A stretch of DNA of 64,000 nucleotides from positions 1,736,001 to 1,800,000 of the forward strand of contig CP102611.1 in NCBI GenBank assembly GCA_041874755.1, written 5' to 3'. The number at the start of each line of letters is the position of its first letter. Positions within the stretch are counted from its first letter, which is position 1. The translations under genes and the position numbers were made by a program. The notes below the pieces were generated by a model. It did no database searches and was not told the DNA's origin. It saw only the letters and a list, made by a program, of their open reading frames with translations. Positions 7,512 through 44,868 of the stretch are shown in pieces. Source of the DNA: Chitinibacter sp. SCUT-21. Lineage in GTDB: Bacteria > Pseudomonadota > Gammaproteobacteria > Burkholderiales > Chitinibacteraceae.

Positions 7512-8900
7512 TTAACCGCCGATACGCTCACGCCATTTCGCCACTTGCACCAGTACTTGGAATGGCGCAGTGCCACCCACGTGATTACGCGCGTCGAGCG
7601 AGCCTTGCAAGGTCAGCACTTGCTGTACGTCGTCTTCGATCAATGGCGAGAATGATTTGAGTTCAACCAGCGTCAGATCCGCCAAATCTTTTTTCTTTTC
7701 TTCGGCGTAACGCACCGCCAGCGCCACGGCTTCGTGTGCGTCACGGAATGGCAGGCCGCGTTTCACCAGATAATCAGCCAAGTCGGTCGCAGTCGCAAAG
7801 CCTTGCTTGGCTGCGCGTTCCATCGCTTCTGGTTTCACGGTAATGCCGCGCATCATATCGGCGTAAATACGCAATGTGTCGGTCAGCGTGTCGACGGTGT
7901 CAAATAGGCCTTCTTTGTCTTCTTGGTTGTCTTTGTTGTACGCCAGTGGTTGACCTTTCATCAGCGTGAGCAAGGCCACCAAATGACCATTTACACGACC
8001 GGTTTTACCGCGCACCAACTCTGGCACGTCAGGGTTTTTCTTTTGCGGCATGATCGAAGAGCCGGTACAGAAACGGTCAGCGATATCGATAAAGCCGTAA
8101 CGTGGACTCATCCACAAAATCAATTCTTCTGACAGGCGCGACAAGTGCGTCATGATCAGTGCGCCAGCGGCAGTAAATTCAATCGCGAAATCGCGATCTG
8201 ACACCGCGTCGAGCGAGTTTTCGCAAATGCCTTCAAAGCCGAGCAATTTAGCGGTAATCGTACGATCGATTGGGAAAGTCGTACCCGCCAACGCCGCCGA
8301 GCCCAAAGGCATGCGGTTGACGCGTTTACGCGCGTCAGCCAGACGCTCAGCGTCGCGACCGAGCATTTCAACGTAGGCGAGCATATGGTGGCCAAACGTC
8401 ACTGGCTGCGCCACTTGCAAATGGGTAAAGCCGGGCATCACGGTGCTGGCGTTTTTTTCGGCCAATTCGACCAGCGAGCGCTGCAAGTCGCGCACCAAAC
8501 CGAGCAGCACGTCGATCGCACCGCGCAGATACAGGCGGATGTCGGTCGCCACTTGGTCGTTACGCGAACGGCCAGTGTGCAGGCGTTTACCAGCGTCGCC
8601 GATTTTATCGGTCAGGCGGCGCTCGATATTCATGTGAACGTCTTCTAAATCCAAGCTCCACTCAAAACGACCGGCGCGGATATCGTCGAGAATATCGGCC
8701 ATGCCGCCTTGGATCGCGCGCAAATCTTCGTCTGACAATACGCCTACTTGATTGAGCATACCGGCATGCGCCAATGAGCCCTGAATGTCGACTTCTGCCA
8801 TGCGGTTATCGAAAAAGACCGAAGCGGTGTAGCGTTTAACCAGCTCAGAAACAGGCTCGTTAAAACGGCCAGACCAGGTTTTATTGGCGGAATCAGACAT
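7512..8900 (-). CDS. argH: Argininosuccinate lyase
   Basis: Last enzyme of arginine biosynthesis, splitting argininosuccinate into arginine and fumarate. The protein has 462 residues, the usual length. It carries the fumarase/aspartase superfamily signature [12 protein letters not shown] (280-291) with the mobile-loop serine, [13 protein letters not shown] (108-120) and [11 protein letters not shown] (156-166, catalytic His160). The ATG is at 8900. No other arg genes are adjacent, and a terminator follows. Confidence 0.98.
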
Positions 8901-30332: not shown

Positions 30333-31604
30333 CTAGCTAGCCTTGGCAATCGGAATATCACTCCAGCGCGTGGTCCAATATTTCGACAAGTTGTTCTGCC
30401 GCATCCCCCACGTTGGCGCGACACCAGCGCTGGCCAGTTGAATTGCGCCGCGCCCCCAGCGTTGGTTGATTTGATCGAGCGTGGCGTTCAGCTGCGCGCG
30501 CTTCAGTGGATCGGCGCTTTGCAAAAATAAATGCCCCTGAATCGCATGATTGGGCTGTAAATCGCCGAGCATCACGCCAGCTTTGGCGTAGGCAAACCCC
30601 GGTCGATAAATCCGCGCCAGCATCCACAAGGCTACCTGCGTAAGTTTCAGCGTGTCATTGCTCGGCTGCGCCAGCGGCAACACCACATGGCGGCGATATT
30701 GTGCTTCGCCGTCGCGAAACGGGCTGGTGCGGATAAATAAGCCAACGCTCCCCGCCACCGAATGCTGGCTACGCGCCTTTTCGGCAGCGCGTGCGATATA
30801 GGTGCTCACCGCCTCGGCGAGCTGTTGTTCGATTTCAATACTGCGGCCAAACGAGCGCGAGCATAAAATCTGCTGCTTATCGGGTTTGACCTCTTCCAGC
30901 TCTAAACAGCTCTGGCCGTTCAGCTCGGCAATCGTGCGTTGCACGACCACGCCATAACGCGCGCGCATTGTTTCCGCACAACTTGCCGCCAAATCGGCCA
31001 CCGTATGTATGCCATCCTGCGCTAGTCTCTTAGAGAACTGGCGACCAATACCCCACACTTCTTCGCTAGGATATTCGCTCATCAACTGGTTTTGCGTCGC
31101 GGCATCGAAGCGAGTCCAATCGCACACGCCATCCAGCTCGCTGCGTTTTTTGGCCAGATGGTTGGCAAACTTGGCCAAGGTTTTGCTCGGCGCGATGCCG
31201 ACACACACTGGCAAACCAGTCCACTGCAACACGGTACGGCGAATGTCTTGCCCCAGCGCGGTATAGTCGCCCGCGATGCCCGCCAGCCCCAAAAAGCACT
31301 CGTCGATCGAATAGACCTCTTGCTGTGGGCTAAACTGCGCCAGCACTTGCATCACGCGCTCGCTCATATCGGCGTACAGCGCGTAATTGCTGCTAAAAGC
31401 GTGCACGCTCTGCCTTAGGGCAAGTGCCTTGACCTGATGCCAAGCGGTTCCCATCGGAATGCCCAGCGCCTTGGCTTCGAGCGAGCGAGAGATAATGCAG
31501 CCATCGTTATTGGACAATACGACAACCGGCTTGCCATTCAGGCGTGGCTCAAACACACGCTGGCAACTCACGTAAAAATTATTCACATCGACCAGCGCGA
31601 TCAT
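30333..31604 (-). CDS. umuC: DNA polymerase V subunit UmuC
   Basis: A 423-residue Y-family translesion polymerase. Motifs are [18 protein letters not shown], the active-site YSIDECFL and [14 protein letters not shown]. The length equals that of E. coli UmuC. The start overlaps the umuD stop by 4 bp (ATGA), so the pair is coupled. Lesion bypass during SOS. Confidence 0.96.
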
Positions 31605-32047
31605 CGCGATTCAACCACCCACGCGCGCACCACGCCCCAGATCGCCAGCTCTTGCTCGTCGCCCAGCACAATCGGCGTGTAGGCTGGGTTTTCGGCCAGT
31701 AGCGCCAGCTTTGCGCCACGGCGGTACAAGCGCTTCACGGTAAAATCGCCGTCCAGCACCGCCACCACCACATCATTGTGCTGCGCGGCAAGCGCACGAT
31801 CGACAATCAGCAAAGCGCCGTCGGGAATACTGCGCTCGGCGTGCGCGCTCACCATGCTATCGCCCGCCACGGTAAAGTAAAAAGTCGCCTCGGGGTGCGT
31901 AATAAAGCGCCGATTTAGATCGACCCTATCCTCAACCCAATCGGCGGCGGGCGATGGAAATCCCGCCGGCACCGCCACGCCAATCAGTGGCAAGGCGCAT
32001 GGCGCGGCGTTGGGCTGCGCTGGGTAAGGGCCAAATAATAAGCTCAT
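31601..32047 (-). CDS. umuD: UmuD, S24-family autoprotease
   Basis: A 148-residue RecA-stimulated autoprotease whose cleaved form joins UmuC. There is no helix-turn-helix, so it is UmuD rather than LexA. The probable cleavage site is Ala28-Gly29 (VPAG), nucleophile Ser64 (GDSM), and the general-base Lys lies in DFTVKRL. The ATG at 32047 is preferred over one five codons upstream. A 24-bp palindrome lies 33 bp upstream. Confidence 0.93.
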
Positions 32048-32079
32048 GATTGCATTCCTCATGCCATATCAAGAGCTTT

Positions 32080-33852: not shown

Positions 33853-35082
33853 TCAGATTTTTACTAGGCTAGCATGCCGTGGCAAAGCGATCGAAATGAT
33901 TGCGGCCAAGGCGATAAAGCCGACTGAGATCCACAAACACGCAGCCAAGCCGGCGGCTTGGTAAACCCCGCCCGACAGCACCGTGCCGATCAGCCGCCCC
34001 ATCGCGTTGGCCATATAGTAAAAACCAACGTCGAGCGAAGCGCCGTCTTCTTTGGCGTAGCTCACGATCAAATAGCTGTGCAGCGACGAATTAATCGCAA
34101 ACAACACGCCAAAGGCGAGCAGTCCACCAACCAGTATTAGCTGTAAATCCAGATTGGAATTAACCCCCAGAGCAATACCGACGGTGAGTATCATCAGCGG
34201 CAAAGCCCACAATACCGCCGCGCGGCCATCGGGCACTTTGCCCGCCTTTTTGCCGGTTAAATACGGTGCCAGCGTTTGCACGATGCCGTAGCCAATCACC
34301 CAGCTGGCAAAAAATGCCCCAACCGCCCAATCTGCCCAACCCAAAGTCGTCGCCATAAACACCGGCAGCGCCACGACAAACCACACATCGCGCGCGCCAA
34401 ACAAAAACAGCCGCGCTGCGGACAAAATATTCACCGCACAGCTGCTAGAAAAAATCTCGCCAAATTTGGGCTTATTTTTCGCCTTGCCCAAATCCGCCTT
34501 TAAACTCAATAAACTCGCGACCCACACCAACAGCAGCACCAGCGCCATCGCCCACATGGCGCCAGCAAAGCCCAAGCTCGCCAGCAACACGCCACCAAGG
34601 AAAAAGCCAACGCCTTTCAGCGCGTTTTTCGAGCCAGTCAGCAGGGCCACCCATTGATACAGCTTGCCTTCCGCCGCCGCGCTGCCGGCTGGAATTAGCG
34701 CTTTCACACTACTTTTCGCGCTCATTTTATTCAGATCTTTCGCAATCCCCGACAAAGCCTGCGCAGCCATCACCCACGGCACGGTCAGCAGCGCCGTTGG
34801 CACGGTTAGCGCCAGCAGCGCAATCACCTGCAGGCCAAGGCCGATATTCATCGTTTTATTCAAGCCAATCCGCGCGCCCAGCCAGCCACCAACCAGATTA
34901 GTCACCACGCCAAACAACTCGTAAAACAAAAACAGCAGCGCGATATTGAGCGGACTAAACCCAAGCTGATGAAAATGCAGCACCACCAACATCCGCAAAG
35001 CGCCATCGGTCAGCGTGAAGGCCCAATAGTTGCCGGTGATGATTAGGTATTGGCGGATGGCGGGGGAGAGGGTGGATAGCAT
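33853..35082 (-). CDS. arsJ: Organoarsenical efflux permease ArsJ (MFS)
   Basis: A 409-residue MFS permease of about 12 spans. GNYWAFTLTDGALRMLVVLHFHQLGF, SGIAKDLNKMSAKSSVK and the YYMANAMGRLIGTVLSGG segment match ArsJ. With the partner GAPDH it exports 1-arseno-3-phosphoglycerate, giving arsenate resistance. Usually arsJ directly follows its gapdh gene. Here about 1.4 kb of unrelated DNA separates them, so co-transcription is doubtful. Confidence 0.93.
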   Translation of the reverse strand: MLSTLSPAIRQYLIITGNYWAFTLTDGALRMLVVLHFHQLGFSPLNIALLFLFYELFGVVTNLVGGWLGARIGLNKTMNIGLGLQVIALLALTVPTALLTVPWVMAAQALSGIAKDLNKMSAKSSVKALIPAGSAAAEGKLYQWVALLTGSKNALKGVGFFLGGVLLASLGFAGAMWAMALVLLLVWVASLLSLKADLGKAKNKPKFGEIFSSSCAVNILSAARLFLFGARDVWFVVALPVFMATTLGWADWAVGAFFASWVIGYGIVQTLAPYLTGKKAGKVPDGRAAVLWALPLMILTVGIALGVNSNLDLQLILVGGLLAFGVLFAINSSLHSYLIVSYAKEDGASLDVGFYYMANAMGRLIGTVLSGGVYQAAGLAACLWISVGFIALAAIISIALPRHASLVKI

Positions 35083-35501: not shown

Positions 35502-35732
35502 TTAGAGCGGGTAAAACTTTGGAATGATTGTGTTGTGACTATTTGCGGATTCAGAAATATTTTGCAAAAGAGTTACGTAAGAATTTTTATTTTTAATACT
35601 AGAAAATTCAGACTGCATTGAAATATAATTATGCTCACCAATATGTGGTCTTATAATGGAAAGACATTGCTCAATGTGCATTATTGCATTTGAAACATAA
35701 ACTGACCGTGCGTAATTAAAACTCAAGAACAA
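35502..35732 (-). pseudogene. C-terminal fragment of a frameshifted membrane protein
   Basis: 76 codons open from a TTG at 35732, without a plausible start of its own. The frame is open further upstream, reading IFNIAFLFLSFNYARSVYV, which completes a membrane helix begun in the other frame by the upstream ORF. A single-base change in the A6 run at 35731-35736 would join the two into a protein of about 220 residues. The soluble tail has no recognised domain. AT-rich compared with all neighbours. Confidence 0.55.
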
Positions 35733-36163
35733 AAAAGCAATATTGAAAATATCATGTATGCTGTTGCGAGTTTTTCCTCACTTTCTTTGATGGAGGCTTC
35801 TAGTGTTTTTATCTCACTTTTTAGAGCAATAATATCTTTGTTTTTATTCTCTTGTACGGTATTTTTTGTTATAGAATTTACCCTGTTATAATATTCCGAT
35901 GTAGCCCCCGTAAGCCCAGACGACAAAATAACTAATAAGAACATCAATGTCATTATTGGCTTGTGCGTGTTTCTTCTGGCGACATCCTTATAAATTGAAT
36001 CAATTGAAGCAGTAAGCCCAAGTGTGCCAATCTTTAATATGACCTTCGTTGTGCCGGATATAAATGACTTTACGAGATTTTCCCATAAAAAATTTGTCAT
36101 GATACCGACGAGAAGTGGTATCAAAATTAGAAGTATTAGGTCTTGTTGAGTTAACTGGGTCAT
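35723..36163 (-). CDS. AT-rich membrane protein of unknown function (probably truncated by frameshift)
   Basis: A 146-residue ORF with two or three membrane spans (about 9-26, 70-90 and the C-terminal end) and a coiled-coil segment (DIIALKSEIKTLEASIKESE, 111-130) before the last. It ends abruptly inside a hydrophobic helix at a T6 homopolymer, and the next ORF continues the helix in another frame. Low GC and position between gapdh and arsJ suggest horizontal insertion. I recognise no family. Confidence 0.6.
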   Translation of the reverse strand: MTQLTQQDLILLILIPLLVGIMTNFLWENLVKSFISGTTKVILKIGTLGLTASIDSIYKDVARRNTHKPIMTLMFLLVILSSGLTGATSEYYNRVNSITKNTVQENKNKDIIALKSEIKTLEASIKESEEKLATAYMIFSILLFCS

Positions 36164-36468: not shown

Positions 36469-37476
36469 CTATTGATCTGCCAATCCCACCTGCTTCATCA
36501 ACTCCGCCGTGCGATTCACATAACCCCATTCATTGTCGTACCACGCGTACAGCTTCAATTGCGTGCCGTTGATGACCATCGTCGATAGCGCGTCGATGAT
36601 GCTGGAGCGTGCATCGCCACGATAGTCGATCGACACCAATGGGCGTTCTTCATAGCCCAAGATGTCTTTCAAATAGGTTTCGGATGCGGCTTTCAGTAGG
36701 CCGTTGACTTCGTCGACGGTCGTGGCGCGTTCTAGCTCGAATACACAATCGGTCAGCGAGGCGTTGGTCAGCGGTACGCGCACGGCGTGGCCGTTCAGGC
36801 GGCCTTTCAGTTCGGGGAAAATCTCGGTGATTGCGGTGGCTGATCCGGTTGAAGTCGGGATCAAACTGGTGCCGCACGAGCGCGCACGGCGCAGGTCTTT
36901 GTGCGGGGCGTCGATGATGGTTTGCGTGTTGGTTAGATCATGAATCGTCGTCATGCTGCCGTGGCGGATGCCGAGCTGCTCGTGGATCACTTTGACGACC
37001 GGCGCGAGGCAGTTGGTGGTGCAGCTGGCGGCAGTGACGATGCGGTGGATGCTCGGGTTGAACAAATGATGGTTCACACCAACCACCACATTCAAAACGC
37101 CCGGCTCTTTGACTGGCGCGGTGACGACGACGCGTTTAACGCCTTGATCGAGGTAGGCTTGCAGCAGCGCGGTGGTGCGCATTTTGCCTGAGGCTTCGAT
37201 CACCACGTCGCAGCCGGACCAATCGGTGTCGCCAATCGCGGTATTGCGCGTGGTTTTGATGTGAGAGGTGCCAATCAGAATATCGTCGCCTTCGGTCGTG
37301 GCTTCGTGCGCAAAGCGGCCATGGATCGAGTCGAAATTGAGCAAATGCGCCAAAGTCGCCGCGTCGCCCGCCGGATCGTTGATCTGTACAAATTCAATTT
37401 CCGGCCAGCCCCACGCTGCGCGCAGTGTTAAACGTCCCATACGGCCAAAGCCGTTGATGCCTACTTTAATCGTCAT
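36469..37476 (-). CDS. ArsJ-associated glyceraldehyde-3-phosphate dehydrogenase
   Basis: A 335-residue GAPDH: NAD site [12 protein letters not shown] (5-16), catalytic Cys152 in AASCTTNC, and [10 protein letters not shown] where glycolytic enzymes usually have THSYTGDQ. In ars clusters this paralog makes 1-arseno-3-phosphoglycerate from glyceraldehyde-3-phosphate and arsenate for export by ArsJ. The ATG at 37476 is chosen because GGAA lies upstream and the protein then begins MTIKVGING. Lies between arsC and arsJ on the same strand. Confidence 0.92.
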
Positions 37477-37520
37477 TTTTTTATTCCATATTGCTGATTG
37501 ATTCTGCACATTGCAGTCTT

Positions 37521-37611: not shown

Positions 37612-38100
37612 TCAAGAGTTAAGGTCGGCCACGTGCTGCTTAAGCGCGAGGTGATCGAGTTTTTCAAATGGCAGAGCGACGAGAAAATCTAGGCGGTGCC
37701 GGATCGTCGCCAGCGTGTGGTTAAAGCTGTGTTGTTGCGCGTCTGCGTCGCCCTCTAGCCCCGGATGCGGGATATCCCAGTGCGAAATCATCGGCACTCC
37801 GGGCCACGCGGGGCATGCTTCGCCAGCGGTGCGATCACACAGCGTAAACACCAAATCCATTTCAGGCGCTCCCGCTTGGGTAAACTCATGCCAGCTTTTG
37901 CTGCGCAAATCAGCGCTTGGAATGTGCGCGTGCTCTAGCGCCTTGAGCGCCATCGGGTGAATGTGGCCGCTTGGCTGGCTGCCAGCGCTATACGCTTTAA
38001 AGCGCCCACGCCCGATGTGATTGAGCAGGGCTTCAGCCATTTGGCTACGTGCGGCGTTTTCGGTGCAGATAAATAGCACGGTGTAAAAATCTTTCATCAT
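37612..38100 (-). CDS. arsC: Arsenate reductase, LMW-phosphatase (thioredoxin-coupled) type
   Basis: A 162-residue reductase of arsenate to arsenite. The phosphatase-like loop is C12TENAARS (C-x5-R, Arg18), and C88 and C96 in TLCDRTAGEACP complete the three-cysteine relay seen in thioredoxin-linked ArsC. The start is the first of two adjacent ATGs after AAAAAGGCTC; a longer upstream frame runs into the arsR promoter. Transcribed divergently from arsR. Confidence 0.92.
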   Translation of the reverse strand: MMKDFYTVLFICTENAARSQMAEALLNHIGRGRFKAYSAGSQPSGHIHPMALKALEHAHIPSADLRSKSWHEFTQAGAPEMDLVFTLCDRTAGEACPAWPGVPMISHWDIPHPGLEGDADAQQHSFNHTLATIRHRLDFLVALPFEKLDHLALKQHVADLNS

Positions 38101-38137
38101 GAGCCTTTTTGTTTTTTTAGGATGGTAATCATAGTAG

Positions 38138-38165
38138 TTCAATATTTCAATAATTGTTGTATAGT
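38138..38165 (+). promoter_or_regulatory. Candidate arsR promoter in the divergent arsC-arsR gap
   Basis: TTCAAT (38138-38143) and TATAGT (38160-38165) with a 16-bp spacer, 6 bp before the arsR start. Repeated TTCAAT/ATTG elements inside suggest an ArsR operator serving both divergent arms in this 71-bp gap. Confidence 0.4.
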
Positions 38166-38171
38166 TGAGAA

Positions 38172-38543
38172 ATGGAAAAAACTGCTGCTATCGCCATGTT
38201 TGAAAGTTTGTCGTCTGGCGTGCGACTGGATGTGTATCGGCTATTGGTGCGCCAAGGCAAAACGGGGCTGGTCGCCGGCGAAATTGCGAGCGAGCTTAAT
38301 CTGCCGGCGAGCAATTTATCGTTTCACCTGAAAGCCATGGTGCATGCTGGTGTACTGACCGTAGCGCAAGAAGGTCGCTATATGCGCTATCGCGCCGATT
38401 TGGCGCAGATGCTCGATTTGATCGCCTATCTAACTGAAGAGTGCTGCGAGGGGAATCCCGAGCAATGTCTGCCGCTCCCGTCCTCTTTGTCTTGCTCGCC
38501 CAGTGAATCAGCCTGTTGCCCCAAACCGGAAGAACCTCGATGA
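38172..38543 (+). CDS. arsR: ArsR family arsenite-responsive repressor
   Basis: A 123-residue winged-helix repressor: [20 protein letters not shown], then recognition helix [19 protein letters not shown] and wing [12 protein letters not shown]. The arsenite-binding cysteines are probably C91, C92 and C99 ([11 protein letters not shown]) at the C-terminus, as in the Acidithiobacillus-type ArsR, not in the recognition helix as in plasmid R773 ArsR. More cysteines follow (SLSCS, ACCP). It overlaps acr3 by ATGA. Confidence 0.93.
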
Positions 38544-39601
38544 ATAGCCAAGCCTGCGTCGATGAATCCACGTCGCATAAAATGAGTTTTTTGGATCGCA
38601 ATCTAACCGTATGGATTTTCCTCGCAATGGCGCTGGGTGTGGGCATCGGCGTAGTGTTTCCACAGGTGGCGCAGCTCAATGAGGCGATGTCGCTTGGTAC
38701 GACCAATATCCCGCTCGCCATCGGCCTGATTCTGATGATGTATCCGCCGCTGGCCAAAGTGAATTACAGCCTGCTGGGAGCGGTGACACGCGATAAACGT
38801 GCGATTACGCTGTCGTTGATCATGAACTGGATCGTTGGCCCAATTTTGATGTTTGTGCTGGCGATTACTTTTTTGCGCGATCAGCCCGGCTATATGGTCG
38901 GGCTGATTTTGATTGGGCTGGCGCGCTGTATTGCGATGGTACTGGTGTGGAACGACATTAGCGGCGGCAGCAAGGAATATGGTGCGGCCTTGGTCGCGCT
39001 CAATAGCGTGTTTCAGATCGTGACCTACAGCGTGATGGCTTGGCTGTTTATCACCGTTTTACCGCCGATCTTTGGGCTGCAAGGCTTTGTGCTTGATATT
39101 ACGATTCTGGATATTGCCAAAAGTGTACTGATTTACTTGGGTATTCCATTTCTAGCGGGATTTTTAAGCCGTAAATACTTGGTCGCAGCCAAGGGCGAGA
39201 CTTGGTATAACACGGTGTTTATCCCGCGCATTTCTCCGATCACGCTAATTGCCTTGCTCGCGACCATCGTGCTGATGTTCAGTTTAAAAGGTGAAATGAT
39301 TGTTGAGCTGCCAATGGATGTGCTGCAAATTGCGATTCCGCTTGTTATCTATTTTATCGTGATGTTTTTCGTGAGTTTTTTCATCGGCAAGAAAATGGGG
39401 CTGCCCTACGATCATAACGCGTCGATTGCGTTTACATCCACCGGCAATAATTTTGAGCTGGCAATTGCGGTGTCGATCGCCGTATTTGGGCTTAATTCCG
39501 ATCAGGCTTTTGCGGGCGTGATTGGCCCGCTGGTTGAAGTGCCAGTCTTGATCGCATTGGTGAATGTTGCGCTCAGGATGAAAAGGAAATACACCGCATG
39601 A
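38540..39601 (+). CDS. acr3: ACR3 arsenite efflux permease
   Basis: A 353-residue inner-membrane protein with about 10 spans. Starts at the ATG overlapping the arsR stop (ATGA). After a soluble N-terminus it has [20 protein letters not shown], the essential cysteine C130 in [13 protein letters not shown], and [18 protein letters not shown] near the end, all diagnostic of ACR3. Exports As(III) produced by ArsC. The stop overlaps the next gene by 4 bp. Confidence 0.96.
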
Positions 39602-40899
39602 GCACCGACGCAAAATTGATTGAGCCTTGCAGCGCAGAGTGGCTGAATAGTCAATGCGCTTGCCAGTTTTTAGATCAAGCCTTGCTCAAGGCCGAGCTGG
39701 AAGCCAGTGCTGATTTGCTTGGGCTGGCCGACGAAATCGCGCAAACCCGCCCGCATCTTTTTTCGGCGACGATGGTGTTTATTACACCCGAGCAGCGCGA
39801 CCAGATGCAGGCAATCATTCGCGCGATCAGCGATCTGGTCGCGATGCCGGCTTGGCAGGATCAAGTTTTAGCGAGCGCACCCACGGCCGCGCAAATCGAT
39901 TTTGGCCAAGACAGCGTGTTTTTTGGCTATGACTTCCATTTGGGCGAGCAAGGCCCGCAGCTGATTGAAATCAATACCAATGCCGGTGGTGCCATGCTCA
40001 ATTTGGCCTTGGCTCGCGCGCAAACGGCATGCTGCACCGCCTGCCCGCCGTTGACCGCGGCCCCGACGACGCTGGATGAGCTGGAAAAAATCTGGTTGGC
40101 GATGTTCGAGCAAGAATGGCAAGCGCAGCGCAATACCCCACGCCCGCGCAGCATCGCCATTATTGATGAAGCGCCGCAGCAGCAATACCTTTATCCCGAA
40201 TTCTTACTGTTTCAACGCATGTTTGCAGCGGCCGATATTGAATGCCTGATTGCAGACCCCGCCGATTTGCGCTGGCACGATCAGCAATTGTGGCTAGGCG
40301 ATACCGCGATTGATATGGTTTACAACCGCTTAACCGATTTTTATTTTGAGCAAGCCAATAGCCAAGCATTGCGGCAGGCTTTTGCCGCTGGTGATGTCGT
40401 CGTGACACCCACACCGCGCGCGCATGCGCTGTACGCCGATAAGCGGCATCTGGCACAGATGAGCTCGGCGCAGCAATTGGCGACTTATCAGCTACCAGAA
40501 TCGAGCATAGCAATTTTGCAGGCGGGTATTCCGCGCACGTATCAAGTCTCGCCAGACAATGCAGCTGAATTGTGGGCGCAGCGGCGGCAACTTTTTTTCA
40601 AGCCGGCGACAGGCTACGGCAGCAAAGCCACGTATCGCGGTGACAAACTCACCAAACGGGTGTGGAGCGAGATTTTGGCGGGCGACTATGTGGCGCAAAC
40701 CTTTGCGCCGCCAAGCGAGCGCTATGTTGCGATTGAAGCCAATCAAACCAGCGATTTGAAATTCGATATTCGCGCCTACGTTTATCGTGGCGAAATCCAG
40801 CTTTTTGCCGCGCGTTTATACAGCGGGCAAACGACCAATTTTAGAACGCAGGGCGGCGGTTTTGCGCCTGTTTACATTGCCGAAAATGCAGGAGAATGA
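39598..40899 (+). CDS. ATP-grasp-like protein of the ars operon (function unknown)
   Basis: A 433-residue soluble protein. [12 protein letters not shown] (122-133) resembles the E-x-N metal-binding strand of ATP-grasp ligases. [17 protein letters not shown] (270-286) and the lysine plus glycine loop [16 protein letters not shown] (333-348) are ATP-site-like, and [19 protein letters not shown] (390-408) follows. The E-x-N block precedes the glycine loop, so the fold may be circularly permuted, as in glutathionylspermidine-synthase-like ligases. Nine cysteines, including a CCTAC cluster (145-149). ATGA overlaps on both sides tie it to acr3 and the phosphatase. Ligation of a thiol or of an arsenic-bearing acid is speculation. 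Confidence 0.6.
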
Positions 40900-41393
40900 C
40901 TTTGACTCATCCGTTTGACATCATGCCTTTAGCTGAAGGCGGCAGCCTGATTTTTACCCCATGCCCAGGTACGAAAGACGTCGATCTACGCAACGCCTTG
41001 CATGAACTAAAAACGGCGGGCACTAGCGCGGTGATTACGATGATGCCGCGGCATGAATTGGCCGAGCACGGCGTGGCCGATATTGAGGCTGCGTGTACTG
41101 AATTAGGCTTGCAGTGGTTTCATTTTCCCGTGGAGGACGACGCTGCACCTGAGCATGCATTTCACACCCAATGGGCTCAGCAAAGCGCAACAATCTTGAA
41201 TTTACTATCTACAGGAAACACGATCGCTGTGCATTGCAAAGGCGGCTCAGGCAGAACCGGTTTGATGGTTGCGCTCTTGCTACGCGCACGCGGTGAAACA
41301 CTAGAAAATGCCACTCAGTCCGTGCAGGCCATACGGCCAAAATCACTACAATTGACAGCTCATCGCGACTTTTTGGCGAGTTTTCCGCTCTAA
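40896..41393 (+). CDS. Dual-specificity/tyrosine phosphatase (CDKN3-like) of the ars operon
   Basis: A 165-residue phosphatase with the signature HCKGGSGRTG (113-122; Cys114, Arg120) and a probable general acid in FPVEDD (77-82). This matches bacterial members of the CDKN3/DSP family. It starts inside the stop of the ATP-grasp-like gene (ATGA) and is the last gene of the arsR operon. Its substrate is unknown. The Cys-x5-Arg chemistry also occurs in LMW ArsC, so an oxyanion or phospho-ester role linked to arsenic is possible, but this is inference. Confidence 0.8.
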   Translation: MTLTHPFDIMPLAEGGSLIFTPCPGTKDVDLRNALHELKTAGTSAVITMMPRHELAEHGVADIEAACTELGLQWFHFPVEDDAAPEHAFHTQWAQQSATILNLLSTGNTIAVHCKGGSGRTGLMVALLLRARGETLENATQSVQAIRPKSLQLTAHRDFLASFPL

Positions 41394-42397: not shown

Positions 42398-44746
42398 TTA
42401 CCTATTTTCCAAACGATTATAATCAAGCAAACCATAATCGATGCCTTGTCGCAAACGCAGGGTGTGATGCACTTCGTCGCTCAACGGCCAAAATTGTGCG
42501 CTGGTTCGGCGTACACCAAATTGATCCATCAATACGGTGTAGTCCGACTCTTGTTTCAGCGCACCAATTTGCTGCGTTAAGCTGGCCAACTGCGCTTCCG
42601 GCACCACCCAATAGGCATTCGGGTAGGCTCCGATGAACCCATTAAGCAGCGTTAAACGGTCTTCGGCGGGGAGGCGCCGTTTTTCTTCAAAGAAAATCTG
42701 CGCCACATTTTTATATGCGCTGTCGTTTAACAAAGTCAGCCAAATAGCTTGACCTTGTTTGGGCAGCACTTTGATTAACACGCTTTGCGGCAACCACTGC
42801 AAACTCTCACCACTAACCGCGCCAAGATTGTGCAAGGCTTGACGCAGCTTGCTAGATTGAATCTGGCTTAAATCAAATTGCCGATTCAAAATGGGCGCGG
42901 TGCGTTGTTTAAATCGTGCTAGCAGCCGATCAAACGCTAGCTCTGGCGACATTTGCGCCAAATCAGCCGAGACATTTGGCCCAAATGGTAAATGGCTGGC
43001 CTGAACGTACTTCAAGGTTTTTTCGGGTGCATCGCGATACCATTGCTGCTCTATGGCTTGATGCGCGGCATCGGGCAATAAAGACAGAAGATTTTGCTCG
43101 CCTTCAATGCGCAGAAAATCCATATACAAACGGCTCTTTAATTGATGTCCCACATTGCCATAGACATCAAAGCCCGCGACTAGCAAATAGTGAAAGCGCT
43201 CAAGCAAGGCATAATCAATCACCCAAGCTGTTTGTGGCCGCTCGCCCAGCAAACCTTGCTCAACGGATGCGCTATCAAAATGACGAAATACCGTCAGTGC
43301 AGCATTGGGATTGTGCTGATCGCCACTCCAAATGATTTTTGGCGCATCCACCTTGCCATCGCCGACCAAGGTTTGTACGAATTGGGATCTAGCTTGCAAA
43401 TAGCGCAGTTGTGATTGCGCATAGCTGCTCCAATCGGCCAAAATCGGAGCCGAACTGCCTAAGGCATCGGGCAAGGCTAGCGCATCTTGATTCTCTTTTA
43501 GAAAGCGTGCGCTATCGTGGTTCTCAATCACATTCGGATCAACAAAAAACACCCAAAACCGATCATTGATAACATTTAATGCCTGATTTCCTCGACAAAC
43601 AGGGCCTTTGATAAAGCCCATTACCGTGAACTTTGCCTCGTCGAGCAACATGCGATAACGCGAATTGACGGGAATTTGATCAAAGACGATAAACGGGTTC
43701 GATGCCGTTTGAAGATCGTAAGCCGGCAACTGCGTCACTTGATACGGCGCATCAATAAACCAGCGTTGCCAGTTTTTCATCCGCGCGGCATCCAGCCGAT
43801 ACGGCATATGCGTTTTGCTTAAGATCGTTTCCTGCACCGGCACAAGGCGGTAATAGGGACGAGCCACGCCCGGATCATCGTACGGGCGCGCCGTAGCGAT
43901 CAGATCAACGGCTTGTGGCGCTTTGGTGCGAGAACGCACCAGCTTAAAAAAGGTTTTATCATCGCCAAAGTGCAGATGGGCGAGAAATAAATGCTCATAC
44001 AAATAGCGCGCCGCCAATTGTGATTTGAGGCTATCTCCGTTAAGCCATTGCTCCCACAGGGCAATTTGTTTTGTTAGCACCGCAGGCAAAGAAGGACGAG
44101 CCTCGCGCTTGGCGCCTTGCGCAATCCAGGTTAGTAATAGCTCATGCTCGGCCGGCGGCAAACCTTGCAAACCAAACGGCATGCCAAAGAGCGGGTTTTG
44201 ATGCGCGTATTGGGTAAAATTCTCGATCGTCGTGCATTGCTCACTACGGCTGAGCGAAAAATCAAATTCTTTGGGTAAGACGGACACATCGGGTAGTGGG
44301 TTTTGCTGTTTCAGCAGCAACATTTGCGCCAGAACACTGCCCTCGATGTCGTTGATCGCAGGTCTTTCATTCAAAACCGAGTGAAACCCGCGCTCACGCC
44401 AGCTAGAGGATTTGAATGCATCTTCAAATAGACGCGTAGGGGGAACAGCCTTGAGCCGCGCACCATCATAAACGGGTTGCGGATTGGCACCACGTGCAAT
44501 CCCCTCCCAGGCGGTGAGTTTCAATTGGCAGGGCGCATCGTAGCAGCCGTGACAAACCGCGCAGCGCGATTCTAAAATCGGCTGTACATCTCGGTAATAC
44601 ACTTCGCCAGACTTTGGTGGCACTGGCACATCAAAGCGCTGTATCTGCGCATCGCCATAGTGCTTATCCCACTTCGCTTCCTTGATTGAGCTACAGGCGG
44701 CTAGCCATACCACAAGGATCAAGACACAAGCATGCTTTAGTTTCAT
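42398..44746 (-). CDS. cti: Fatty acid cis/trans isomerase
   Basis: A 782-residue periplasmic haem protein converting cis- to trans-unsaturated fatty acids in phospholipids under solvent or heat stress. Starts at ATG 44746 with a lipoprotein-type signal (LAAC, Cys18) and has a c-type haem site C62-AV-C65-H66. YYRDVQPILESRC and the long C-terminal domain match Cti. An upstream frame extension crosses a terminator hairpin and is rejected. Confidence 0.95.
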   Translation of the reverse strand: MKLKHACVLILVVWLAACSSIKEAKWDKHYGDAQIQRFDVPVPPKSGEVYYRDVQPILESRCAVCHGCYDAPCQLKLTAWEGIARGANPQPVYDGARLKAVPPTRLFEDAFKSSSWRERGFHSVLNERPAINDIEGSVLAQMLLLKQQNPLPDVSVLPKEFDFSLSRSEQCTTIENFTQYAHQNPLFGMPFGLQGLPPAEHELLLTWIAQGAKREARPSLPAVLTKQIALWEQWLNGDSLKSQLAARYLYEHLFLAHLHFGDDKTFFKLVRSRTKAPQAVDLIATARPYDDPGVARPYYRLVPVQETILSKTHMPYRLDAARMKNWQRWFIDAPYQVTQLPAYDLQTASNPFIVFDQIPVNSRYRMLLDEAKFTVMGFIKGPVCRGNQALNVINDRFWVFFVDPNVIENHDSARFLKENQDALALPDALGSSAPILADWSSYAQSQLRYLQARSQFVQTLVGDGKVDAPKIIWSGDQHNPNAALTVFRHFDSASVEQGLLGERPQTAWVIDYALLERFHYLLVAGFDVYGNVGHQLKSRLYMDFLRIEGEQNLLSLLPDAAHQAIEQQWYRDAPEKTLKYVQASHLPFGPNVSADLAQMSPELAFDRLLARFKQRTAPILNRQFDLSQIQSSKLRQALHNLGAVSGESLQWLPQSVLIKVLPKQGQAIWLTLLNDSAYKNVAQIFFEEKRRLPAEDRLTLLNGFIGAYPNAYWVVPEAQLASLTQQIGALKQESDYTVLMDQFGVRRTSAQFWPLSDEVHHTLRLRQGIDYGLLDYNRLENR

Positions 44747-44830
44747 AGCAACCCCATTTCTTATTTTGCATTGAGTGTATGCCTGTGACGCTATACCTGC
44801 ATCTGGTTTTCGCAATGAATCAGCTTCATG

Positions 44831-44868
44831 CAATAAAAAACCACTGCACTGGCAGTGGTTTTTTATTG
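44831..44868 (-). terminator. Terminator after the 44886 small gene
   Basis: Perfect 17-bp inverted repeat (core AACCACTGC / GCAGTGGTT) with a 4-nt loop and A/T-runs either side, between the small gene and cti. Confidence 0.9.

Follow-up and report, generated by a model that had tools for sequence, protein, structure and literature searches.

A divergent arsenic island of Chitinibacter encoding a putative VarH-type phosphatase and a predicted glutathione-synthetase-fold ligase from a family linked to soft-metal resistance genes

The single-contig, 3.45-Mb genome of Chitinibacter sp. SCUT-21 carries a divergent arsenic-resistance (ars) island, which was analysed here within a window of 64,000 nucleotides (contig CP102611.1, positions 1,736,001 to 1,800,000; coordinates below count from the first letter of this stretch). 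The island extends beyond the four-gene segment 38172..41393 to which a preliminary description had been devoted, and consists of arsJ-gapdh-arsC, the last of low-molecular-weight (LMW) type, reading away from arsR-acr3-ligase-phosphatase. Its features are as follows, with bit scores and family cut-offs where a family was matched.

33853..35082, minus strand: arsJ, an efflux permease of the major facilitator superfamily, in the arsenate arm (NF033734, 600.9 bits; cut-off 400)
36469..37509, minus strand: ArsJ-associated glyceraldehyde-3-phosphate dehydrogenase (GAPDH; NF033735, 569.9 bits; cut-off 450)
37612..38097, minus strand: ArsC-like protein of the LMW phosphatase fold (PF01451, 68.5 bits, over the cut-off)
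38098..38171, no strand: divergent intergenic region between the two starts
38172..38543, plus strand: arsR, regulator (PF12840, 47.9 bits, and PF01022, 24.7 bits, both over their cut-offs)
38540..39601, plus strand: acr3, arsenite efflux pump (TIGR00832, 451.7 bits; cut-off 282.8)
39598..40899, plus strand: 433-residue ligase of predicted glutathione-synthetase (circularly permuted ATP-grasp) fold, with the signature C20/C22/C145/C146
40896..41393, plus strand: putative VarH-like phosphatase of dual-specificity type, catalytic pair C114/R120 (PF22785, PF22784 and PF05706, over their cut-offs)

With arsR, acr3, an LMW arsC-like gene, gapdh and arsJ, the island resembles known acr3 and arsJ-gapdh arsenic islands, from which it differs in having the ligase as an additional component. 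As had been described, the four plus-strand genes are joined by three 4-bp overlaps, with ATGA at 38540, 39598 and 40896. Overlaps of this kind are frequent in bacterial operons, and therefore show little on their own. All seven genes are found in the same order in Chitinibacter sp. GC72 (locus L002; the contig is identical in genome G598), where the first two overlaps, including that between acr3 and the ligase gene, are kept and a short gap takes the place of the third. Identity between the two strains is 66% for the phosphatase, 81% for ArsR, 83% for ArsC, 84% for the ligase, 93% for Acr3, 96% for GAPDH and 97% for ArsJ, and the divergent intergenic region is mostly identical.

For the phosphatase, the preliminary description had recognised a Cys-x5-Arg enzyme, and this was borne out: the protein contains one such motif, formed by C114 and R120, and passes the cut-offs of dual-specificity-type Pfam families. 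The accompanying statement that it is not a standard ars gene fails in view of its gene neighbourhood and of published work on VarH from the var operon of Vibrio cholerae. In that work, published in 2022, VarH is assigned to the cysteine-based phosphatases of the dual-specificity superfamily and is active on p-nitrophenyl phosphate, its C113 and R119 are required for arsenate resistance, and its loss leads to more 1-arseno-3-phosphoglycerate, which its authors proposed it splits into 3-phosphoglycerate and arsenate (PMC9601151). The two proteins share the phosphatase type, the C-x5-R pair (C113/R119 in VarH, C114/R120 here) and a genetic setting, be it operon or island, that includes gapdh and arsJ, whereas the window gene differs in its position, lying after acr3-ligase on the divergent arm and not after gapdh. 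The correspondence with VarH is drawn from the phosphatase family, the catalytic motif and the order of the genes.

Chromosomal homologues of the phosphatase (E 1e-25 or better) were found in 26 of 397 genomes sampled across the phylum, at 28 places altogether. Flanks of 6-8 kb were inspected at 28 loci, comprising 27 places outside the host and one in the host-family genome G343, and at 24 of them both ArsJ and an ArsJ-type GAPDH are present; ten sampled loci of a single genus have the order gapdh-phosphatase-arsJ. In a sample of the order, matches at 1e-8 occurred in 21 of 300 genomes, and besides those of the host and G343 all were weak (76 bits or less). On plasmids, a homologue is present in 67 records, and the eight that were picked by the analyst for inspection are all ars operons, among them acr3-phosphatase-gapdh-arsJ from Pseudoalteromonas, arsH-phosphatase-gapdh-arsJ from Methylophaga and arsRDA-transporter-arsC-phosphatase from Citrobacter. 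VarH is termed 'rather exclusive to the Vibrionaceae' in the part of its report that was available (PMC9601151). For the wider family this is contradicted by the plasmid ars loci of Shewanella, Pseudomonas, Citrobacter, Klebsiella, Enterobacter, Pseudoalteromonas and Methylophaga, so that a function described as near-Vibrionaceae-specific would extend to ars operons of many genera, plasmids included. In the available portions of two further reports, a phosphatase gene in the ICEpMERPH ars cluster (PMC6947025) and an entry for a tyrosine phosphatase that lies between arsH and gapdh in Pseudomonas pseudoalcaligenes (PMC10138600) are listed with no role assigned.

An ordinary protein-tyrosine phosphatase with no tie to arsenic would be compatible with the closest PDB sequence match, a Sulfolobus tyrosine phosphatase, and with the four chromosomal loci of the 28 at which no ars marker lies nearby (L178, in a host-family relative and 56% identical, L189, L195 and L206). 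Given the 24 loci beside gapdh and arsJ and the eight plasmid operons, however, this explanation is highly improbable. By analogy with VarH, the protein is best taken for a phosphatase of arsenic esters, of a kind already known, and the earlier suggestion of an arsenic-bearing phospho-metabolite from the gapdh/arsJ arm as its substrate finds strong support in this neighbourhood together with what is accessible of the VarH study (PMC9601151).

The new part of the island is the ligase, which belongs to a soft-metal-linked family of predicted glutathione-synthetase fold that occurs in ars operons of several lineages. The idea that it is an ATP-grasp protein stands at the level of the predicted fold, while no family library assigns the window protein. 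Its AlphaFold2 model, with a predicted local distance difference test (pLDDT) score of 92.5, is matched by the synthetases of glutathione, glutathionylspermidine and trypanothione as well as by YgiC, all of which are circularly permuted ATP-grasp ligases, whereas Pfam and NCBIfam yielded no match. Compared with these enzymes and YjfC, the window ligase is only 9-16% identical, and differs in its four-cysteine signature and in belonging to a family often found near metal-resistance genes. Searches of PDB sequences with the protein and its profile gave nothing significant, the sole row for the profile being 2f1r at E 1.4, and the sole PHROGs match stood at E 0.29. UniRef names some relatives CP_ATPgrasp_2 (PF14403), and one relative, P0083, reaches 28.7 bits (E 8.5e-07) against this family over residues 207-405, below the cut-off of 32; the window ligase itself is unmatched. 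It is also unmatched by the GshB profile TIGR01380, whose one match in the host is another gene, outside the window. Since the host thus has an ordinary glutathione synthetase elsewhere, the ligase gene is not needed for glutathione itself.

The family is large, with at least 7,999 related proteins in a protein search, and relatives were detected in 84 of 299 genomes of the phylum sample (E 1e-20) and in 65 of 399 genomes of the order sample (1e-60). One of the relatives, a Chitinibacter protein, is 85% identical to the window ligase. Two branches can be told apart: a close one, with about 42-85% identity to the window protein, and a distant one, with about 29-39%, which forms a separate clade in the tree (six rows, support 100/100). 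In all 93 aligned proteins of the family, the distant branch included, D112, E124, N126, R244, K335, D390 and R392 are invariant, and these residues constitute a candidate catalytic core. A non-significant hhalign pairing places D112, E124 and N126 opposite positions 318, 330 and 332 of the glutathionylspermidine synthetase GspS, which we take to be magnesium ligands.

A second set of conserved residues distinguishes the close branch. C20-x-C22 and C145-C146 are the sole ligase cysteines kept across it (each in 54-61 of 69 proteins; the fragments L055 and L056 were left out of these counts and of the tree), C11, C149 and C216 being kept in 2-4 of the 69. The full set of four occurs in 10 of 11 ars-linked and 23 of 27 metal-linked proteins (33 of the 38 with either link), in 19 of 33 others and in none of 24 from the distant branch, a relation to metal context with p 0.023 when kinship is disregarded. 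C22 and C145 agree in presence or absence in 67 of 69 close-branch proteins, and such joint retention or loss is as expected of one binding site, although kin also share the pattern. From conservation, the four cysteines probably form a single site that binds or senses a metal(loid). Their concordance among relatives and their frequency in metal contexts would also suit a protein that serves as a metal sensor or store, with the four cysteines holding metal and the ATP-grasp site vestigial; yet D112, E124, N126, K335, D390 and R392, identical in 93 of 93 proteins, argue for catalysis and make this explanation very unlikely.

Gene neighbourhoods were compared with one set of markers and one E-value rule within about 8 kb. 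Histidine kinase was not counted, its reference having been dropped after it matched in controls. The 59 close-branch loci comprised 40 of 68 match rows from the order sample (the top and some weaker ones), 16 rows from the phylum sample and L002-L004; the window was excluded, as were L005 (a second Denitrificimonas caeni record) and L006 (the same plasmid as L088), and some loci stop near a contig end. As controls, 40 regions were taken from ligase-bearing genomes, at round-number positions picked by the analyst on long contigs. Ars markers were present at 10 of 59 close loci and at none of the 40 controls (Fisher p 0.005), copper markers at 18 and three, mercury markers at two and one, and any of the three at 27 and four (p 0.00015). 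With histidine kinase counted, the figures become 24 of 59 against six of 40 for copper and 32 of 59 against seven of 40 for any marker. The marker references were partly taken from tested loci themselves (L004, L042 and L082), and leaving these out gives 24 of 56 against four of 40 for any marker; for ars, omission of L082 and L002 gives eight of 57 against none of 40. At L105 the ars label comes solely from an ArsR at 35% identity, and the ligase lacks the four cysteines. Eleven plasmid loci (12 of 32 records were chosen by the analyst and 11 counted) include no ars, nine copper and one mercury locus, ten having any marker, with or without the kinase, while the 24 distant-branch loci include no ars, one copper (three with the kinase) and no mercury locus. 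The link of the family is therefore to soft-metal resistance generally and is not specific to arsenic.

The metal genes concerned are varied. The ligase locus of pHAL1 has a copper oxidase, CopB, CopC and CopD, and that of Methylophaga copper oxidases and a heavy-metal sensor pair; mer genes lie near the ligase in pMR68 and Stutzerimonas, a heavy-metal P-type ATPase in Polaromonas, and resistance-nodulation-division (RND) efflux genes in Acidovorax. A Sphingobium locus that matched none of the markers has a cation diffusion facilitator, and in Sulfuricella pSCD the ligase is followed by an ATP synthase operon and preceded, within 7 kb, by an RND permease. Among ars loci the orders found were ligase-arsR-arsC-acr3 (L081), arsR-arsC-arsC-acr3-ligase (L082), arsR-arsC-acr3-ligase (L083), arsR-arsC-ligase followed by an acr3 fragment at a contig end (L111), ligase-gapdh-arsJ-arsR-arsC-acr3 (L041) and a ligase divergent from arsR-arsC-arsC (L098). 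In a set of 43 genomes with a close-branch ligase, chosen by the analyst, Acr3 (TIGR00832) is present in 29, in seven of which (the host, GC72, G536, G591, G416, G019 and G367) no more than 5 kb separates it from the ligase; ArsJ (NF033734) is present in eight, and three of these (the host, GC72 and G019) have it close to the ligase. On a tree of 75 family proteins the ars label requires eight changes, of which at least five are forced by well-supported branches, and it has therefore been gained more than once, or gained and repeatedly lost.

These neighbourhoods bear on two further explanations of the ligase. Its gene might serve general stress or be cargo, moving on plasmids and genomic islands together with metal-resistance islands, as the close loci free of any marker (32 of 59 when histidine kinase is excluded) and one plasmid locus with transaldolase, phosphoglucomutase and phosphoketolase genes adjoining the ligase would allow. 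The 4 bp shared by its gene and acr3 in the host and in GC72, the occurrence of the ligase within arsR-arsC-acr3 runs of other families in varying order, and the enrichment of markers over control regions from ligase-bearing genomes all argue against this, and we consider it unlikely. The ligase could instead modify a protein or peptide, for example by attaching an amino acid or a polyamine to a protein that handles metal, in the manner of peptide ligases with related folds. However, the only recurrent partners that stand out among the close-branch loci are metal-resistance genes (frames of at least 60 residues were considered, so that a shorter substrate peptide would escape), and the full-length structural matches of the model are small-molecule ligases, with far higher Z scores. 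A protein-modifying role is thus also an improbable one, to about the same degree as that of cargo.

Taken as a whole, the locus may be read as a two-armed ars island, with a VarH-like phosphatase and a ligase that makes a small As(III)-binding thiol, a reading to which we give roughly even weight. Under this reading, arsenate would be reduced and then exit as arsenite via Acr3. By an alternative route, GAPDH would capture arsenate as 1-arseno-3-phosphoglycerate, and the phosphatase, if it acts as proposed for VarH, would hydrolyse this compound so that arsenate leaves via ArsJ and 3-phosphoglycerate is recovered. The 433-residue protein would be an ATP- and magnesium-dependent ligase of the glutathione/glutathionylspermidine synthetase fold, most likely coupling a gamma-glutamyl thiol (glutathione or gamma-Glu-Cys) to an amine or amino acid. 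The resulting thiol could bind As(III), Cu(I) or Hg(II), with metal control exerted via the cysteine site. The same ligase family would be at home in copper and mercury islands, since Cu(I) and Hg(II), like As(III), are soft and seek thiols. Trypanothione, the kinetoplastid conjugate of glutathione and spermidine that is reported to be linked to resistance to metalloid drugs, offers a parallel for the proposed product. On the side of regulation, ArsR has a cysteine cluster, Cys91-Cys92...Cys99, as well as Cys108 and the pair Cys115-Cys116, and from the sequence Cys91, Cys92 and Cys99 are the likely As(III) site. The region 38098..38171, placed between two divergent starts, likely holds ArsR-controlled promoters; a promoter and terminator scan found no consensus sigma-70 match on its plus strand, and an inverted-repeat search of it returned nothing useful.

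Several points weigh against this reading. Acr3 exports arsenite and not a thiol complex, so that a thiol ligand would need a different route or role. The preliminary description had proposed a thiol or peptide that binds As(III) as a possible product of the ligase, which is still plausible, although, largely in line with an outcome named there as a refutation, homologues lie mostly away from ars genes: no searched ars gene is near 49 of the 59 close, 11 of the 11 plasmid or 24 of the 24 distant loci, and 32 of the 59 close loci (27 if histidine kinase is counted) have none of the markers at all. The four cysteines are also complete in 19 proteins with no metal marker nearby, and in independent pairs, which are few, their link to metal context is not significant. 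Comparison of the ligase with YgiC and GspS by sequence and profile was likewise not significant. Furthermore, Cp1B of E-64 biosynthesis, as far as the available description goes, is an amide-forming ATP-grasp ligase of the same fold with a non-thiol substrate, and the bare fold hence does not fix the substrate of the modelled ligase. Finally, in the accessible part of their report, the authors of the VarH study could not confirm hydrolysis of 1-arseno-3-phosphoglycerate in vitro (PMC9601151).

A broader proposal is that the family makes a dedicated soft-metal(loid) thiol chelator, such as a glutathione amide or a trypanothione-like dithiol, has been repeatedly recruited to arsenic, copper and mercury operons, and is switched on when metal binds at its four cysteines. 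We advance this tentatively and regard it as rather doubtful. If the ligase does make a thiol ligand, the operons would encode an inducible pathway to a chelator of arsenic, copper and mercury, a counterpart of phytochelatins and trypanothione, and a dedicated chelator would add a small-molecule arm to bacterial metal resistance alongside pumps, reductases and metallothioneins. Such a pathway would have been overlooked because Pfam and NCBIfam both miss the ligase. With at least 7,999 relatives, and metal genes often nearby in the part sampled, one biochemical assay could annotate a large group.

In the open-licence literature that was searched, no report of an ATP-grasp ligase in ars operons was found, which does not show its absence from print. 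A word search of the accessible text of one ars survey returned neither ATP-grasp nor phosphatase (PMC6205960), and in the available part of another paper ATP-grasp is merely a table entry (PMC6016940). An algal link between ATP-grasp and arsenic was rejected, the ATP-grasp protein belonging to a sunscreen cluster in the part of the source available (PMC7826186). As far as the accessible account shows, the ATP-grasp protein NIS_RS04835 of Nitratiruptor sp. SB155-2 is up-regulated by cadmium and copper and is listed apart from the ars genes (PMC10092412).

Some ligase and phosphatase loci have features of their own. On the Methylophaga thalassica plasmid NZ_CP143310.1 (L166 and L169), the phosphatase belongs to an ars operon that also has gapdh and arsJ, and the ligase lies separately in a copper island. 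At L006/L088, from one 86.6-kb plasmid, and at L090, a conserved run of genes precedes the ligase, made up of RND efflux, flavin-dependent (FAD) oxidoreductase, YeeE/DUF6691, phospholipase D and hypothetical genes, and on the L006/L088 plasmid an ATP synthase operon lies downstream of it. At L053 (genome G231), a small ArsR-like helix-turn-helix gene at 7633-7959 (PF12840, 26.8 bits, just below the cut-off of 27) overlaps the start of the ligase relative by 4 bp, forming a two-gene regulator-ligase unit. The small frame after the ligase in L007 gave a weak acetate-kinase match, under the cut-off. In the distant branch, two glycosyltransferase-like genes adjoin the ligase relative at L071, L072, L075 and L077, and an SMC-like ATPase gene and a phosphate-binding-like gene do so at others, L057 and L060 among them, all named by eye. 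Glycosyltransferase-like and MTAP-like genes can occur near arsenosugar genes. A link to arsenosugars, considered for the distant branch on account of such genes seen by eye, was dropped, as ars markers are present at none of its 24 loci, ArsS not being among the genes searched for.

Within the island, ArsR scores 48.1 bits against NCBIfam NF033788, under the cut-off of 55, and the arsC-like gene 57 bits against TIGR02691, below the cut-off of 174.3; the start given for the latter is an inner ATG, and a longer frame with a TTG start runs to 38142. The gap that separates arsJ from gapdh contains a 146-residue frame in the window (35723-36163; no Pfam match) and a different one of 297 residues in GC72 (L002, 3915-4808). 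Given these differing frames in two Chitinibacter genomes, the gap may be a place within the arsenate arm that accepts insertions. Outside the island, a umuDC-type pair lies on the minus strand at 30333-32062, in which a peptidase S24 gene (31601-32062) and a Y-family polymerase gene (30333-31604) overlap by 4 bp. On the other side, 42398-44833 encodes a fatty acid cis/trans isomerase (CTI; PF06934, 831 bits), and this gene adjoins a 310-residue frame with no Pfam match.

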